Shown one piece after another: positions 17,673 through 56,984 of a DNA stretch of 64,000 nucleotides. Source of the stretch: Synergistota bacterium (GTDB lineage Bacteria > Synergistota > GBS-1); NCBI GenBank assembly GCA_025060595.1, contig JANXBX010000004.1:124001-188000 (forward strand), given 5' to 3'. Both the position numbers and the translations under genes were made by a program. The notes under the pieces are model-generated. The model was given only the letters and a program-made list of their open reading frames with translations. It ran no database searches and had not been told where the DNA came from. Each line of letters begins with the position of its first letter. The first letter of the stretch is position 1.

Positions 17673-17691
17673 AAAAAAACCGTGGTCGTGC
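17673..17691 (-). terminator. T-run terminator at the 3' end of SRP RNA
   Basis: The last 12 bases of the SRP RNA pair with its 5' end and are followed on the minus strand by seven T bases and then ATTC. The RNA's own closing helix plus this U tract should act as the intrinsic terminator. Confidence 0.6.
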
Positions 17692-17960
17692 ACCTACCTT
17701 CGATCAAACCTCTCCAGGACGTTCCTTAAACCTTTGGCTCCAGCCAAGCACCCCCGTGGCACCCAAAGATTACCGCTTACCGTTGCTCCCTTCCGGGCCT
17801 GGCGGGGTTCACGGATCTTTGCCGCACGGGACCCAGCTTTCAACGCCTCCGGCTTAAGGCTGCTCCTAAAGAAGATGACCTCTGGGTAGGAATTCAACCC
17901 CGCTATAGCGGATTGCGGGTTTTTAGGGCACCGCTACCTCCCCATCTAGCACGACCACGG
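17680..17960 (-). ncRNA. ffs: Signal recognition particle RNA, large (Alu-containing) type
   Basis: About 281 bases on the minus strand, from 17960 down to 17680. The two ends are exact 12-base complements (CCGTGGTCGTGC and GCACGACCACGG) closing helix 5. The conserved SRP54-binding hairpin is present: on the RNA strand 'GCCCGGAAGGGAGCAACGG' near 17804-17786, followed by the symmetric loop 'TAAGCGG'. A 5' Alu-like domain precedes it. Seven T bases follow the closing helix (A's at 17673-17679), so transcription should end there. Chance reading frames across this stretch are not genes. Confidence 0.93.
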
Positions 17961-36793: not shown

Positions 36794-36821
36794 GTTAATC
36801 GAAGACGAAAACTATAATAGG

Positions 36822-36925
36822 TTACTCCGTGGGGGAGCTCCTACTAAGGGGCTGAGAGGAGGACGTAAAGTCCTCGACCCCTTGAACCTGATCCGGGTAA
36901 TGCCGGCGGAGGGAAACGGAAGTTA
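36822..36925 (+). promoter_or_regulatory. TPP riboswitch aptamer (THI element)
   Basis: Contains the conserved core 'GGGGCTGAGAGGA' (36848-36860), 'CCTTGAACCTGATCCGGGTA' (36880-36899) and 'AATGCCGGCGGAGGGAAACG', with P1 formed by TCCGT (36826-36830) and ACGGA (36916-36920). It binds thiamine pyrophosphate and controls thi4-thiC directly downstream. Its 3' segment GGCGGAGGGA (36905-36914) can pair with the first arm of the following terminator. Confidence 0.96.
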
Positions 36926-36938
36926 AATCTTAGAAAAA

Positions 36939-51389: not shown

Positions 51390-51464
51390 TGGTGGGCGAA
51401 ACAGGGTTCGAACCTGTGACCTCCTGCTTGTAAGGCAGGCGCTCTCCCGCTGAGCTATCCGCCC
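51390..51464 (-). tRNA. tRNA-Val (anticodon TAC)
   Basis: Acceptor GGGCGGA/TTCGCCC, anticodon loop CTTACAA on CCTGC/GCAGG giving TAC, T loop TTCGAAC, discriminator A, encoded CCA. First gene of the array, directly after its promoter. Confidence 0.95.
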
Positions 51465-51476
51465 AACCCGGTATTA

Positions 51477-51505
51477 AGTATAATAGAGAAGCTTCACAAA
51501 GTCAA
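51477..51505 (-). promoter_or_regulatory. Promoter of the six-tRNA array
   Basis: On the minus strand TTGACT (51505-51500), 17-base spacer, TATACT (51482-51477). The RNA start would be near 51470, six bases before tRNA-Val. One transcript should cover Val, Asp, Phe, Gly, Cys and Asn tRNAs. Confidence 0.8.
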
Positions 51506-51571
51506 GTAGTTATAAACTATTATGCCTCTCTGTCAAGCAACTAAGAACCTTTGCAAAGCGCTTTCAAGTCA

Positions 51572-52642
51572 TCATTCATCCTCAAACTCTATTCCAAGTT
51601 GAGTAAATGCCTCCTTTACCTTCATCTCATAATCACTTTCGTTTATTTCTCCCTCTTCCGCCCTTATCCTGATCTCCACCATATTAAACTTCTGTCTCAA
51701 AAAAGATATTATCTTCATAACATCTGAAGCCCTTCCTTCGGGAAGTTTAAATTTTAACTTCACTCTATCTTTCTTGGATATACCTAAAGATAAAGTCCCT
51801 TCAGGCTCTTTTATCACTGATTTTGATTTATCAGGAAACCCTATATATCTGTCCTTTTCCTCAATTTTTAAGGAGGATTCTACCTCAGGGCTTTTTGGTT
51901 CGATCTTATTTTTTCTTTCTTTTACTTTTTGTTCACATATCTCTTTCTTTATTAGGATCTCTTCTTCTTTAAAGCATATCTCTGGATTTTGTCCTTCTCC
52001 ATAATAGTTTAAAACAATCTCATTACCACGAAGCTCCCCAAGCCCTAAGATCTTCCCTTCAATAGCCCTTTTAATTCCATCAACCAAAACCTCTTTATTG
52101 GCAAATCTCAGTGCTCCTGGCGTTCTATAGCTGGAATCCAAAATATTTTTAGTAGATACATAATCTTTATCACCTAAAAGCCTTTCCTTTATAACTATTG
52201 GATCAATAGCTTCCAGTATGTTACCTTCTCTTTTCAGAGCATCATATACTAATATATTTAAAGCTCTTTTTTCTCCTACAGTAGGTAATCCTAAATCTTC
52301 CTTTTCGCTCTTTCCAGGTATAAAAATATTTCTATAAGCTCTTCTAAGCTGATCCCCTAAAGTTCCTCCCAAAGTTTTCAACCTCTCTTCCACTTCTCTC
52401 TTTTGCTCATCGGAAAGATTTAAGTTTTCATTTTTTATATACTCACAGGCTAAATAGTCCCTTATCGTATTTTTTAAGGCTAAGCGCTCACTTTCTATGG
52501 GAATTAATAAAAATATCGTGTTTACATTTACTCTTGGAGTTTCACCTTTAAATCCAAATATCTTATCAATCAACTCCCTTTTCTCTTCTTTTAAAATTAC
52601 AAGCTTAAACTCTTCGTTATCAGAAACAGATTGAAAGACCAC
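51572..52642 (-). pseudogene. C-terminal remnant of a DUF499-type ATPase
   Basis: 356 residues. 'TPRVNVNTIFLLIPIESERL', 'IRDYLACEYIKNENLNLSDEQ' and 'RRAYRNIFIP' resemble the part of DUF499 proteins that follows their N-terminal AAA core. Intact members are about 1000 residues and carry a P-loop; none is present here, and an in-frame TAA directly precedes the GTG at 52642. DUF499 proteins occur with DUF1156 methylases and SNF2 helicases in predicted phage-defence loci. It is probably a truncated leftover, although an open frame of this length might still be translated. A charged linker (about 230-290) precedes a small C-terminal domain. Confidence 0.6.
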
Positions 52643-52719
52643 TTATAAACCAGGTTTTACTTTTTAAGAACAGCAATAATTCAAGCCCGTTTCCTTTAAT
52701 CTATGATATCCTCCCTCAC

Positions 52720-54615
52720 TTAATGATTGTTCTGAATTATCTTTTTCAGAAAACCCAAAGTTTCATCATCTTCACAATATATATAAGTGCCTAGTACCCC
52801 TCGTGTAAGAAATATTCTATACCTGTTTATCAACAATTTCATTGCAAGCTTCTTTGAATCCATATCTCCCTTCTTAGCTTTATTAAAAATTACCCTTAAA
52901 CTAGGCCTACCAATTGTATCCTCACAACTATCCCCTAAAGTCCATTCAGTTTCTCTCCAAACTAAATCCCTTCCCCAAATTAGTCCTATATAGTCAGCTT
53001 CAAAACCTTGAACTCCGTAAATTGAGGCACAATGAGTTAGCTTATTACTTTCTCCCCCAAGCCAAAAATTGGGATACTGAATCTTTTCATCCATAAGCCA
53101 ATAAATGAACACATTTTTGTTTTTGTACCTTTCAAATCCGCTATATAAAGGATATCCAACTCGCAGGTTTTTCTCACTTTTTTCAGTTTTATTCTTTCTA
53201 TCCCCTGGAGATTCAGTAAAAGATGCTATAATAGCTATTTTATGTTTTTTTTCTCCCTTCTTCTTCAAATAGGAAATGAAATCTTCAATATTTGAGAATA
53301 CTTTTAATTCATAATTAGTCAGTCGTGGGAAAACTATATCTTTAGGATTAACCAAAAGCTTTTCAATAAATTGATGATATAAAGCTCCTCCTTGCACCCT
53401 ATATATTCCTTTTAGAACTATTTCTTTATAAGGTATATCTAGCTCTTTAGCTGTGTTTATAAAGTTTTCTCTCCAACCTTCTTCTTCTGCATTTAATATT
53501 TGATTCTCATCAAAGAAAAAAACAGTAATATCCCCTCGCTGCATTGCAACTCTTATATTCTCTTTAGTCATTCTCTGCGCTTCATCATAAATCACCAGCT
53601 TAAAATGAGGATAATAAGGGTCCCCTTCAGCAAGACCATTATTTCTACCAGTAGAATAAAATTTTATAACACTATCAAGACCAGGTGCACATTCGAAAAA
53701 TATTTTCCTAATAGTGTTTATAAGCCTATTATTCCTATAACTAAGAATAGCAAGATTAGAACAATTATCTCCAATCTCACTAAAAACCTTCAAAAGAAGT
53801 AAAACCGCAACATAAGATTTACCTGAACCAGGTAGCCCACTTATTATGTAACACAATTTATTATTACTTTTTAACTCATTAATAATCTCTTCTATTATTT
53901 TTATCTGCTCCTCAGATGGACCAAACCCCCTTGCGCAGAGAGATTCATAGGCTCCTTTCCTCAAAATTTCAAAATTTTCTCTTATAGCGTTTAACAACAA
54001 TGTAGATTGAATATACTCCCCATTTATAAAAGACTGAACTACTTCCTCCTCTAATACTCCAGATATGTTTTCTTTAATATAATTCAATATTTTACCCGGA
54101 TCTCTTGTTATTAGTATTTCACTACACCTTGAACTAATGTTTTCAGAAAGAGAATTGTAAAGCCATCCAACTCCAAATATATTAAAGTTTACTGCTGATG
54201 AGTGACAGTATTTTAATTTACCTATATAATTAAGTAACTGAATTCGTGGATGCTGATATATCTGCCCATTTGCCTTCACAATATTTTCACTAATTTCCTC
54301 GATTCTATTCCAACCTTTCAGTTCAAATATCAATGCAACAGGCTTTCCTAAACTATTCTTCCCAAATATTATAAGATCAATTCTCTCATTACTCATTGGA
54401 AGTTTATATTCCATAGCAAAAAAAAGATCCCCGTTAAGATTTTTAAATAATTTCCTAACATGCAATAATGCTCCTTCCCATGCTCTTTTCTCCTCCAAAC
54501 TAGGGTATTCTCCAGAAACATTATAAATTCCTTCAAATAATCTTAATAAAATACTTTGGTTGCTTTCTTTTAAAAAACTTTTTATGGTATCAACTAATAC
54601 TAATGGCTTAAACAT
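52720..54615 (-). CDS. Nuclease-helicase fusion: PD-(D/E)XK-like domain plus DUF2075 SF1-type ATPase
   Basis: 631 residues. The N-terminal part (about 1-200) has 'NERIDLIIFG' (Asp80) and 'ALIFELKGW' (Glu98, Lys100), the spacing of a PD-(D/E)XK nuclease. The rest is a DUF2075 helicase-like ATPase: Walker A GLPGSGKS (260-267), Walker B 'KLVIYDEAQRM' (about 339), 'VFFFDENQIL', and C-terminal motifs 'SIYGVQGFEADYIGLIWG' and 'YRIFLTRGVLGTYIYC'. All motor motifs look intact. It starts one base after the stop of the helicase fragment, with a weak AGG ribosome site. Probably an antiphage or DNA-processing enzyme; base composition looks more AT-rich than the neighbouring genes. Confidence 0.8.
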   Translation of the reverse strand: MFKPLVLVDTIKSFLKESNQSILLRLFEGIYNVSGEYPSLEEKRAWEGALLHVRKLFKNLNGDLFFAMEYKLPMSNERIDLIIFGKNSLGKPVALIFELKGWNRIEEISENIVKANGQIYQHPRIQLLNYIGKLKYCHSSAVNFNIFGVGWLYNSLSENISSRCSEILITRDPGKILNYIKENISGVLEEEVVQSFINGEYIQSTLLLNAIRENFEILRKGAYESLCARGFGPSEEQIKIIEEIINELKSNNKLCYIISGLPGSGKSYVAVLLLLKVFSEIGDNCSNLAILSYRNNRLINTIRKIFFECAPGLDSVIKFYSTGRNNGLAEGDPYYPHFKLVIYDEAQRMTKENIRVAMQRGDITVFFFDENQILNAEEEGWRENFINTAKELDIPYKEIVLKGIYRVQGGALYHQFIEKLLVNPKDIVFPRLTNYELKVFSNIEDFISYLKKKGEKKHKIAIIASFTESPGDRKNKTEKSEKNLRVGYPLYSGFERYKNKNVFIYWLMDEKIQYPNFWLGGESNKLTHCASIYGVQGFEADYIGLIWGRDLVWRETEWTLGDSCEDTIGRPSLRVIFNKAKKGDMDSKKLAMKLLINRYRIFLTRGVLGTYIYCEDDETLGFLKKIIQNNH

Positions 54616-54616
54616 T

Positions 54617-55000
54617 TTACCTATAGGCGCTTACTTTATGATTTATATAACCATATACAGCTTCTATTTGATGGGGGAGAGGATCTATCTTGGAAACATT
54701 TACTGCAAGAAGCGGATCATAAAGAGACGCATATTTATATCTAAGAACTTCTAAAGAAAGGAATACTTTCCAAGCTTCTTCCTTGAATAATCTATTTATA
54801 GTTTTTAATTTTATTTTATCAAGATCCTTTAAGGGAATTAGATCGTCAACACGTCCACCGCTTTTTAGCAAAGATCCAATTATGTGAAGATAACTCTCGT
54901 AACTTTCAACCAAATCAACCTTTACAGGCTCTGGCCAAAAAGGTCCAGAAATCACACTTCCTCGTTTCAGATCCGCTAAAATCGCTTCCTTATCTTTCAC
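54617..55000 (-). pseudogene. N-terminal fragment of a SNF2-type defence helicase
   Basis: 127 residues. 'VISGPFWPEPVKVDLVESY', 'EVLRYKYASLYDPLLAVN' and 'VSKIDPLPHQIEAVYGYI' match the opening of SNF2-family helicases that accompany DUF499/DUF1156 proteins. In intact proteins the last motif leads straight into the Walker A loop; here the frame stops nine residues later. The start is GTG 55000, seven bases after AAAGGGGG, a strong site, so the fragment is probably still translated and may serve to load ribosomes for the nuclease-helicase gene one base downstream. Confidence 0.65.
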
Positions 55001-55053
55001 AAAAGCACCCCCTTTAATTTACTATTTATATGCAACATATTCTGTATAAATAG

Positions 55054-55074
55054 CTTTGATTTTTATTTTATCAA
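55054..55074. repeat. AT-rich inverted repeat upstream of the defence remnant
   Basis: TTTGAT, nine bases, ATCAAA. It lies in the 220-base gap between the divergent defence island and the YgiQ-like gene and could be an operator for the island. Such AT-rich dyads also arise by chance. Confidence 0.3.
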
Positions 55075-55152
55075 AAATAAATAATACTCTACAAGCTAAA
55101 GGCTTAATAGGCTAAAATCTCAAGTAAAACTGAAGAGCAACTATTCCACGGT

Positions 55153-55182
55153 TTGATTAAAGATAGCCTTTTATGATATCAT
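55153..55182 (+). promoter_or_regulatory. Promoter of the YgiQ-like gene
   Basis: TTGATT (55153-55158), 18-base spacer, TATCAT (55177-55182). The RNA start near 55189 lies after the ATG at 55173 and before the ATG at 55221, which supports the second start. Confidence 0.5.
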
Positions 55183-55220
55183 TTTACAGCCCTTGGTTAG
55201 AAAGAGATGGTGATTATAAG

Positions 55221-56984
55221 ATGCTCGATTTTTTACCTATAACCATAGAAGAGGCAAAGAAAAAAGGCTGGGATGAGCTGGATGTAATAATAGTAACGGG
55301 AGACTCATATATCGATCACCCCTCCTTTGGAGCAGCCGTAATAGGAAGGATCTTAGAATTTCATGGCTTTAGGGTGGGCATACTCCCTCAACCTGATTGG
55401 AAGGATAAAAACACCTTTAAGGCATTAGGAAAGCCTAGATTATTCTTTGGTATAACCGCTGGAAGCGTAGACTCCCTTGTAGCTAACTATACCCCCAACA
55501 AGAGAAAACGAGAAAGCGATGCTTATACACCAGATGGCAAGCCTGGTAGACGACCTGATAGAGCAACTATAGTATATGCAAATGTAGTCCACGAAATTTA
55601 CCCTGATGTTCCAATAATACTAGGAGGTATAGAAGCAAGCTTAAGAAGATTTTCTCACTATGATTATTGGGAAGATAGAGTAAGACACTCCATACTTCTT
55701 GACGCCAGAGCAAAAATATTAGTGTATGGAATGGGAGAAAAGCAAGTGGTTGAAATCGCTAAGAGGTTATCGTTACAAAAGCCTTGGTATGAAATATATC
55801 AGACACCAGGAATAGTCTACTCATTAAGTGAAAAGGAGTTCGCTGAGCTTTTCAAGGATAGGAAGTTTTTGCTCCTTCCATCTTTCGAAGATGTATCTCA
55901 AGATAAGGAAGCCTATTACGAGTTTCAGCAAAAGCTTATAAGGGGATTAAGAGAAAGGTTAACGCTAGTTCAAAAGGATGGTAAAAGATATGTTATACAG
56001 AATCCACCTACCATTTATACTACCGAAGATCTTGACTTAGTTTATTCTTTACCCTTTAAGAGGCTACCTCATCCCTCTTACAAGGAGAGGATTCCCGCCT
56101 TAGATACGGTAATTACATCTATAACATCTCATAGGGGATGTTTCGGAAGTTGCACATTCTGCTCCCTGAATATCCATCAAGGTTGGCAAGTAATATCAAG
56201 AAGTCAAAATTCTATTCTAAAAGAGGCCTTTAAACTAACATCTCACAAAAGCTTTAAGGGGACGATATCAGATATAGGTGGACCCACAGCTAATATGTAT
56301 CAAATCAAATGCAAGTTAAATAAGATACCTGGGACATGCTTGAAGAGAGAATGCCTATTCCCAGAAGTGTGCGAATATTTAGAGCTAGATTATTCCGCCC
56401 AACTTGATTTACTTAGAAAAGTAAAAGATATACCTAAAATAAAGCACGTTTTTATAGCTTCAGGAATAAGGTACGATCTAGTGTTAGAAAATGAAAATTA
56501 CTTAAGAGATCTGATAAAAGAGGGATTTATTGGTGGACATCTATCAGCTGCACCAGAACATGTTAAGGACCACGTCCTTGAGATAATGAAAAAACCCTCT
56601 TTTAAGACTTATGAAAAGTTTGTCGAAATTTTTGAGAGAGAAACTAAGAGCCTTGATAAGGAACTATATATAATCCCATACTTTATCTCAGGTCATCCTG
56701 GAGCAACAATTAAAGATGCTTGGGATTTAGCAATCTATGTTAAAAATCTAGGACACTATTTAGAACAGATACAGGATTATACACCACTTCCTTTAACAGT
56801 AGCATCTTGTGCTTTCTATACAGGGTTTCATACCTTAAGGAAAGAAAAAATTTATGTTCCTAAAAGCTACGAAGAGAGAAGACTCCAGAGGGCATTAGTT
56901 CAATGGAGGGACAGAAAAAATAAGGAGTTTCTCCTTAAAAATAGGGATAAGATTCCATTCCCCCTAGAGAGGATTATAAAATAA
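55221..56984 (+). CDS. YgiQ-family radical SAM protein
   Basis: 587 residues from ATG 55221. An N-terminal cobalamin-binding-like region ('ELDVIIVTGDSYIDHPSFGAAVIGRILE') is followed by the radical SAM cluster CFGSCTFC (about 312-319) in 'TSHRGCFGSCTFCSLNIHQ', 'HLSAAPEHVKD' and 'YFISGHPGATIKDAWDL'. The family (UPF0313) is widespread and its reaction is not established. An upstream ATG at 55173 would lie inside the predicted promoter; the chosen start is preceded by GATGGTGAT. Ends at a hairpin shared with htrA. Confidence 0.9.
   Translation: MLDFLPITIEEAKKKGWDELDVIIVTGDSYIDHPSFGAAVIGRILEFHGFRVGILPQPDWKDKNTFKALGKPRLFFGITAGSVDSLVANYTPNKRKRESDAYTPDGKPGRRPDRATIVYANVVHEIYPDVPIILGGIEASLRRFSHYDYWEDRVRHSILLDARAKILVYGMGEKQVVEIAKRLSLQKPWYEIYQTPGIVYSLSEKEFAELFKDRKFLLLPSFEDVSQDKEAYYEFQQKLIRGLRERLTLVQKDGKRYVIQNPPTIYTTEDLDLVYSLPFKRLPHPSYKERIPALDTVITSITSHRGCFGSCTFCSLNIHQGWQVISRSQNSILKEAFKLTSHKSFKGTISDIGGPTANMYQIKCKLNKIPGTCLKRECLFPEVCEYLELDYSAQLDLLRKVKDIPKIKHVFIASGIRYDLVLENENYLRDLIKEGFIGGHLSAAPEHVKDHVLEIMKKPSFKTYEKFVEIFERETKSLDKELYIIPYFISGHPGATIKDAWDLAIYVKNLGHYLEQIQDYTPLPLTVASCAFYTGFHTLRKEKIYVPKSYEERRLQRALVQWRDRKNKEFLLKNRDKIPFPLERIIK

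Follow-up and report, generated by a model that had tools for sequence, protein, structure and literature searches.

The 64,000-nucleotide stretch of Synergistota DNA analysed here, hereafter the window, carries the two outer ends of an Hma defence locus on either side of a complete nuclease-helicase gene. In the reading that we favour, to which we give a probability of about 0.7, the core of an Hma island was lost, and its place, in register behind the start of hmaA, is now occupied by a nuclease-helicase imported from a lineage of stand-alone genes. The Hma system was named in PMC8565338 and has been recast as a Type-1 (DUF499-centred) BREX-related system in PMC12839542.

An island between tRNA-Val and ygiQ

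An ORF check of the window placed three minus-strand ORFs, in the order head, nuclease-helicase, tail, at 51572-55000, as the earlier note had reported. The island is wider than that note's limits, as it fills the whole gap between tRNA-Val and ygiQ. The features of the region are as follows.

54617-55000, minus strand: head, remnant of hmaA, 127 codons (PADLOC HmaA; alignment with four intact HmaA proteins)
52720-54615, minus strand: complete 631-aa PD-(D/E)XK plus SLFN-g3 (DUF2075) SF1-type helicase (Pfam PF09848, motifs, AlphaFold2)
52643-52719, minus strand: junction of 77 nt from the nuclease-helicase stop to the HmaC tail, in-frame stops present
51572-52642, minus strand: tail, remnant of hmaC, 356 codons (PADLOC HmaC; alignment with HmaC C-termini)
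~51480-55150, no strand: whole island, from the tRNA-Val promoter region to ygiQ (gap compared with sister genus G003)
51390-51464, minus strand: tRNA-Val(tac), marker flanking the insertion site
55173-56984, plus strand: ygiQ-type radical SAM gene, opposite flanking marker (77% identical orthologue in G003)

In G003, the sole outgroup that is readable at this site, the ygiQ orthologue adjoins the same tRNA cluster as in the window. The tRNA-ygiQ gap is ~90 bp there and 3.7 kb in the window, where it is filled by exactly three ORFs. The GC content of the island is 32.6%, compared with 38.6% for the window. The island would be an insertion relative to G003, or else it was lost in G003. The genome is a 99%-complete draft of 34 contigs, and a single contig of 197 kb contains both junctions. 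Elsewhere in the window, Rfam detected a TPP riboswitch at 36821-36932 and a bacterial large SRP RNA at 17686-17954, both of them ordinary.

The head and tail are remnants of an Hma locus

The head matches positions 5-117 of the 1176-position PADLOC HmaA profile with an E-value of 1.2e-12. It aligns with four intact HmaA proteins from their start until ~6 residues short of GAGKT, the Walker A motif, so that the description of this ORF as the start of an SNF2 helicase that stops just before Walker A was correct. The helicase core is absent from the ORF. The earlier note had called this head regulatory; what can be seen to be retained from HmaA is the ribosome-binding site, the start and the N-terminal domain: the native GTG start of hmaA is still in place, with a strong Shine-Dalgarno sequence, AAAGGGGGTG, upstream of it. 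Homologues of the head were found in 61 plasmid records and, among the matches listed, nearly all are annotated as helicases.

The tail had been proposed to be the end of DUF499. It does match the C-terminal end of the DUF499 ATPase HmaC (profile positions 584-842 of 941, PADLOC E-value 7.4e-10), while the DUF499 profile itself gives an E-value of only 0.008. The aligned part corresponds to about the C-terminal third of HmaC and stops at the native C-terminus; the AAA+ core is gone. No ribosome-binding site is evident for this ORF. The predicted structure of the tail is weak (pLDDT 60, from a shallow alignment) and confidence is low over its first ~47 residues, a hint that the cut point falls within a domain. 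No HmaC homology is detectable in the 77-nt junction, as adding the junction to the tail did not raise the profile score. A search of the breakpoints for repeats or microhomology returned short matches only, with no clear tie to the breakpoints. Among full-length proteins, those closest to the tail are HmaC variants of ~900 aa that lack HEPN and are encoded on viral contigs (L189, L191, L198, L200); scanning the viral contigs with the tail as a single protein gave no match, and an alignment-based search was needed.

Because the two pieces lie on the same strand, keep the polarity of intact loci and match two independent profiles, a chance resemblance can be ruled out. The in-frame codon usage of both frames is native-like and of the coding type, and the chance of an open 356-codon frame at the local composition is ~2e-15. 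DUF499 (Type-2) loci and DrmD/DISARM were considered as the source of the fragments and rejected, since HmaA and HmaC score clearly better.

Intact loci of this kind are present in the same phylum. The A-B-C operon order was found in five loci, three of them complete (L020, L022, L024) and two with hmaA clipped by the end of the fetched stretch (L016, L018), and the full order also occurs on a Thermus oshimai plasmid and on several viral contigs. In 188 genomes of the phylum, homologues of the tail lie inside HmaC frames of 589-1159 aa, with the exception of one copy, truncated at a contig end, in the sister genus G002, and 36 viral-contig loci carry homologues of the head or tail as parts of long proteins. 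Homologues in which both short ORFs have the same length, which the earlier note had named as the result that would speak against it, were searched for and none was found: apart from the cut G002 frame, head and tail always lie within long proteins. Since all relatives found hold both pieces in this way, head and tail are remnants and not small genes. These comparisons confirm that the two are leftovers of one helicase-methylase-ATPase locus.

Compared with an intact Hma locus, the two remnants, derived from HmaA and HmaC, retain the gene order and strand, helicase first and ATPase last, but the methylase between them is missing, as are the cores of the helicase and the ATPase, and only HmaA residues 5-117 of 1176 and the C-terminal third of HmaC are left. 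Searches of the organism's own genome with HmaA and HmaC found neither core elsewhere, and HmaB (the DUF1156 methyltransferase, PF06634) had no match there, although the same search was positive in G003. With the methylase, helicase core and ATPase core gone from the genome, the locus is unable to work as Hma, and the suggestion that an ancestral middle was deleted or replaced is supported.

Several related loci have features of their own. Cargo genes lie between hmaA, hmaB and hmaC in L016, L018 and L020, for example AAA ATPase genes beside small unidentified genes, and those in L020 are apparently duplicated. On Thermus oshimai pTHEOS01 (L028:8562-12626), an IS4-family transposase splits the Hma methylase. 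A Type-2 BREX-related locus in G003 (L123, G003:C13, 339-6087) consists of a DUF499 ATPase, a 189-aa gene (perhaps DUF3780) and a DUF1156 methylase. The HmaC tail in G002 (L025, G002:C35, 5037-5537) is 39% identical and runs off the contig end; HmaA and DUF1156 genes were not found in this 96%-complete assembly, and the tail is possibly a second remnant.

A complete nuclease-helicase lies between the remnants

The 631-aa protein matches the SLFN-g3_helicase/DUF2075 profile PF09848 over positions 3-354 of 354 (E-value 2e-66, 225 bits against a cut-off of 24). The N-terminal, nuclease half has no Pfam match of its own and was assigned from motifs and fold. The PD-(D/E)XK residues D80, E98-L-K100 and Q126xxxY130, and the helicase residues Walker A K266, the DEAQ box and motif VI R605, are conserved among 38 homologues. 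The AlphaFold2 model has a pLDDT of 89 and a pTM of 0.89, and its best PDB fold matches are Schlafen helicases, SF1 helicases and RecD/Dna2. With its motifs intact and its predicted fold confident, the gene is judged to encode a complete nuclease-helicase, in agreement with the earlier description of an intact PD-(D/E)XK plus DUF2075 protein. It is not a component of Hma: the genes nearest to it stand alone in thermophilic archaea.

How does this protein compare with known systems? Its best PADLOC match is the candidate PDC-S41 (E-value 8.7e-19), but the match is partial, in two stretches of a 657-position profile, the best at 546-622. We found no published test of this candidate, nor any paper on DUF2075 in defence. 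A related helicase domain is present in Nhi and AbiO (E-values 5e-15 and 9e-12), with which the protein shares the logic of nuclease and helicase in a single chain. The Nhi match, however, is confined to the helicase half, 185-393 of 470 profile positions, and the nuclease half is unmatched. The C-terminal helicases of human SLFN11 and SLFN14, the best PDB fold matches, belong to the same helicase group, but the TM-score is low (0.35) and the Schlafen RNase core has no sequence match.

The closest relatives are stand-alone archaeal genes

A search of 187 further genomes from this phylum detected no copy of the nuclease-helicase. Genome and viral contigs scanned with the 631-aa protein as a single query gave no match, and alignments were required. 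Among the best 80 genome matches, seven stand apart at 35-42% identity, the remainder being at 21-26%, and all seven come from thermophilic archaea: Thermoplasmata, Sulfolobus, Marsarchaeota and another member of the Crenarchaeota. The nearest archaeal relatives, at 35-44% identity overall, are stand-alone genes of ~600 aa, and in archaeal loci the nuclease-helicase is single, with no constant neighbours; MazG or Hma genes were found at none of seven and none of a further twelve close loci. These archaeal SLFN-g3 genes (L036-L042, L152-L163) equal the window gene in length, domains and motifs, whereas the window gene is bacterial and lies within a gutted Hma locus, behind the HmaA start. The earlier note had supposed that the middle gene may have come to act alone through the remodelling; the archaeal relatives are already stand-alone genes, so it did not turn solitary in that way.

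Whole-phylum searches found the gene in 16 of 390 Thermoplasmatota genomes and, for the Sulfolobus phylum, in 9 of 398, a sporadic presence that fits a mobile accessory gene. In a phylogenetic tree, the window gene and the archaeal set form a 20-row clade at 100/100, beside a Ferroplasmaceae-type group at 94/86, and the branch leading to the window gene is long, its best identity being 42-44%. Transfer between thermophilic archaea and this bacterial lineage is the simplest reading of these sequences, and the nesting together with the wider archaeal spread suggests that its direction was from archaea to the bacterium.

The more distant homologues appear in another context. A MazG-like nucleotide pyrophosphohydrolase gene adjoins 42 of 73 distant DUF2075 PD-(D/E)XK homologues, in what looks like a conserved two-gene module (for example L030:7438-9680, L031:7519-9773, L035:9631-11857, L034:3064-5180 and ~40 genome loci); L034 additionally carries a GIY-YIG-DUF2075 protein. 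The window protein has the two-domain architecture and catalytic motifs in common with MazG-linked proteins (L030, L031, L035, L044 and others), but the identity is only 20-27% and the window contains no MazG-like gene.

Discussion

The explanation that we prefer starts from an Hma (Type-1 BREX-related) island that would originally have occupied the site flanked by ygiQ and the tRNA-Val operon. This island would have lost the whole of hmaB, the greater part of hmaA and the AAA+ part of hmaC, and the place of the core would have been taken by one complete nuclease-helicase gene from the thermophilic-archaeal stand-alone lineage. The promoter and Shine-Dalgarno sequence of hmaA would drive the 127-codon head as a leader ORF, transcription presumably starting from that promoter. 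Since the leader stop codon lies 1 nt ahead of the nuclease-helicase ATG (TAA-A-ATG), translation of the enzyme probably relies on coupling or re-initiation, and the hmaC tail downstream would be vestigial. The protein would most likely attach to the ends or single-stranded gaps of invading DNA, where its SF1 motor would translocate and its PD-(D/E)XK domain would cut, a single-protein defence of the kind represented by Nhi and other nuclease-helicases. Nhi, discussed in PMC10732053, is the precedent for a single nuclease-helicase acting on phage replication complexes. An antiviral role is likely. Support for this explanation comes from the Hma-matching ends, the intact loci elsewhere, the lack of Hma in trans and the ~90 bp site in G003, and further from the completeness of the enzyme, the archaeal stand-alone clade at 100/100, the lack of another copy in the phylum and the sporadic presence of the gene. 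Against it, no intermediate, that is an intact Hma locus carrying the nuclease-helicase gene, was found, and the long branch of the window gene weakens the case for the suggested direction of transfer. A retained function of head and tail would also fit frames that are still open and have native codon usage.

A variant of this explanation differs in the order of events only: the nuclease-helicase would first have been carried as cargo by an Hma locus that was still whole, and the flanking host genes would afterwards have been trimmed by two deletions while selection kept the cargo. This order is possible, though we consider it the less probable one. Cargo genes between hmaA and hmaB and between hmaB and hmaC are common in the phylum (L016, L018, L020), and embedded nucleases in BREX-related loci have been reported (PMC12839542). 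Yet none of the best 80 nuclease-helicase loci lies in an Hma locus; the lone SNF2 neighbour of a distant homologue (L098) was examined as an HmaA and rejected, since ZorD and DpdE match it better.

A role in DNA repair or at the replication fork, rather than against viruses, is somewhat harder to sustain and we regard it as unlikely. Around the gene in Thermoplasma species (L038, L041, L158, L161) the neighbourhood is conserved and ordinary, as would suit such an enzyme, and because the archaeal relatives lie mostly in ordinary chromosomal neighbourhoods, context there does not imply an antiviral function. However, the gene is present in only ~2-4% of the genomes of two archaeal phyla, it sits here in the remnant of a defence island, and its family is matched by the candidate defence profile PDC-S41.

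That head, nuclease-helicase and tail make up a new three-part system, with the N-terminal (Tudor-like) module of HmaA and the wHTH/RRM tail of HmaC as recognition adaptors for a swapped-in effector, is improbable. Both fragments are open frames with coding-type codon usage, the tail retains its native C-terminus, head and effector nearly overlap so that co-translation is likely, and a related HmaC tail is present in G002, in whose assembly neither HmaA nor a DUF1156 gene was found. But the short ORFs occur in no homologue, the head ends inside the helicase domain and the tail begins inside a domain with a stretch that is not confidently folded, the tail has no evident ribosome-binding site, and the G002 copy, being cut by a contig end, is unreadable. 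A modular locus of Hma recognition ends with an archaeal effector, of which the G002 tail would be a second case, is if anything slightly more doubtful still. An assembly artefact, in which two misjoins put an unrelated gene between the fragments of a 34-contig draft, is very improbable, as both junctions lie within a single contig with syntenic flanks, all three ORFs are alike in composition and codon usage, the searches gave no archaeal sequence above 44% identity that might be a contaminant, and the lost Hma parts do not turn up at any other place in the assembly.

The embedding of nucleases in BREX-related loci is already known, as auxiliary nucleases were reported in PMC12839542; the parts described here are of known kinds, their arrangement is unusual, and they do not make a new type of system. 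In the portions of the literature on Hma and BREX-related loci available to us, replacement of a whole core with both outer ends left was not found described. On the preferred explanation, the island is a defence locus seen after a single unrelated enzyme had taken over from its entire working core, the outer ends being left in place. The partnerless PD-(D/E)XK-SLFN-g3 clade, which extends across thermophilic archaea and into a bacterium, is a candidate one-gene antiviral enzyme.
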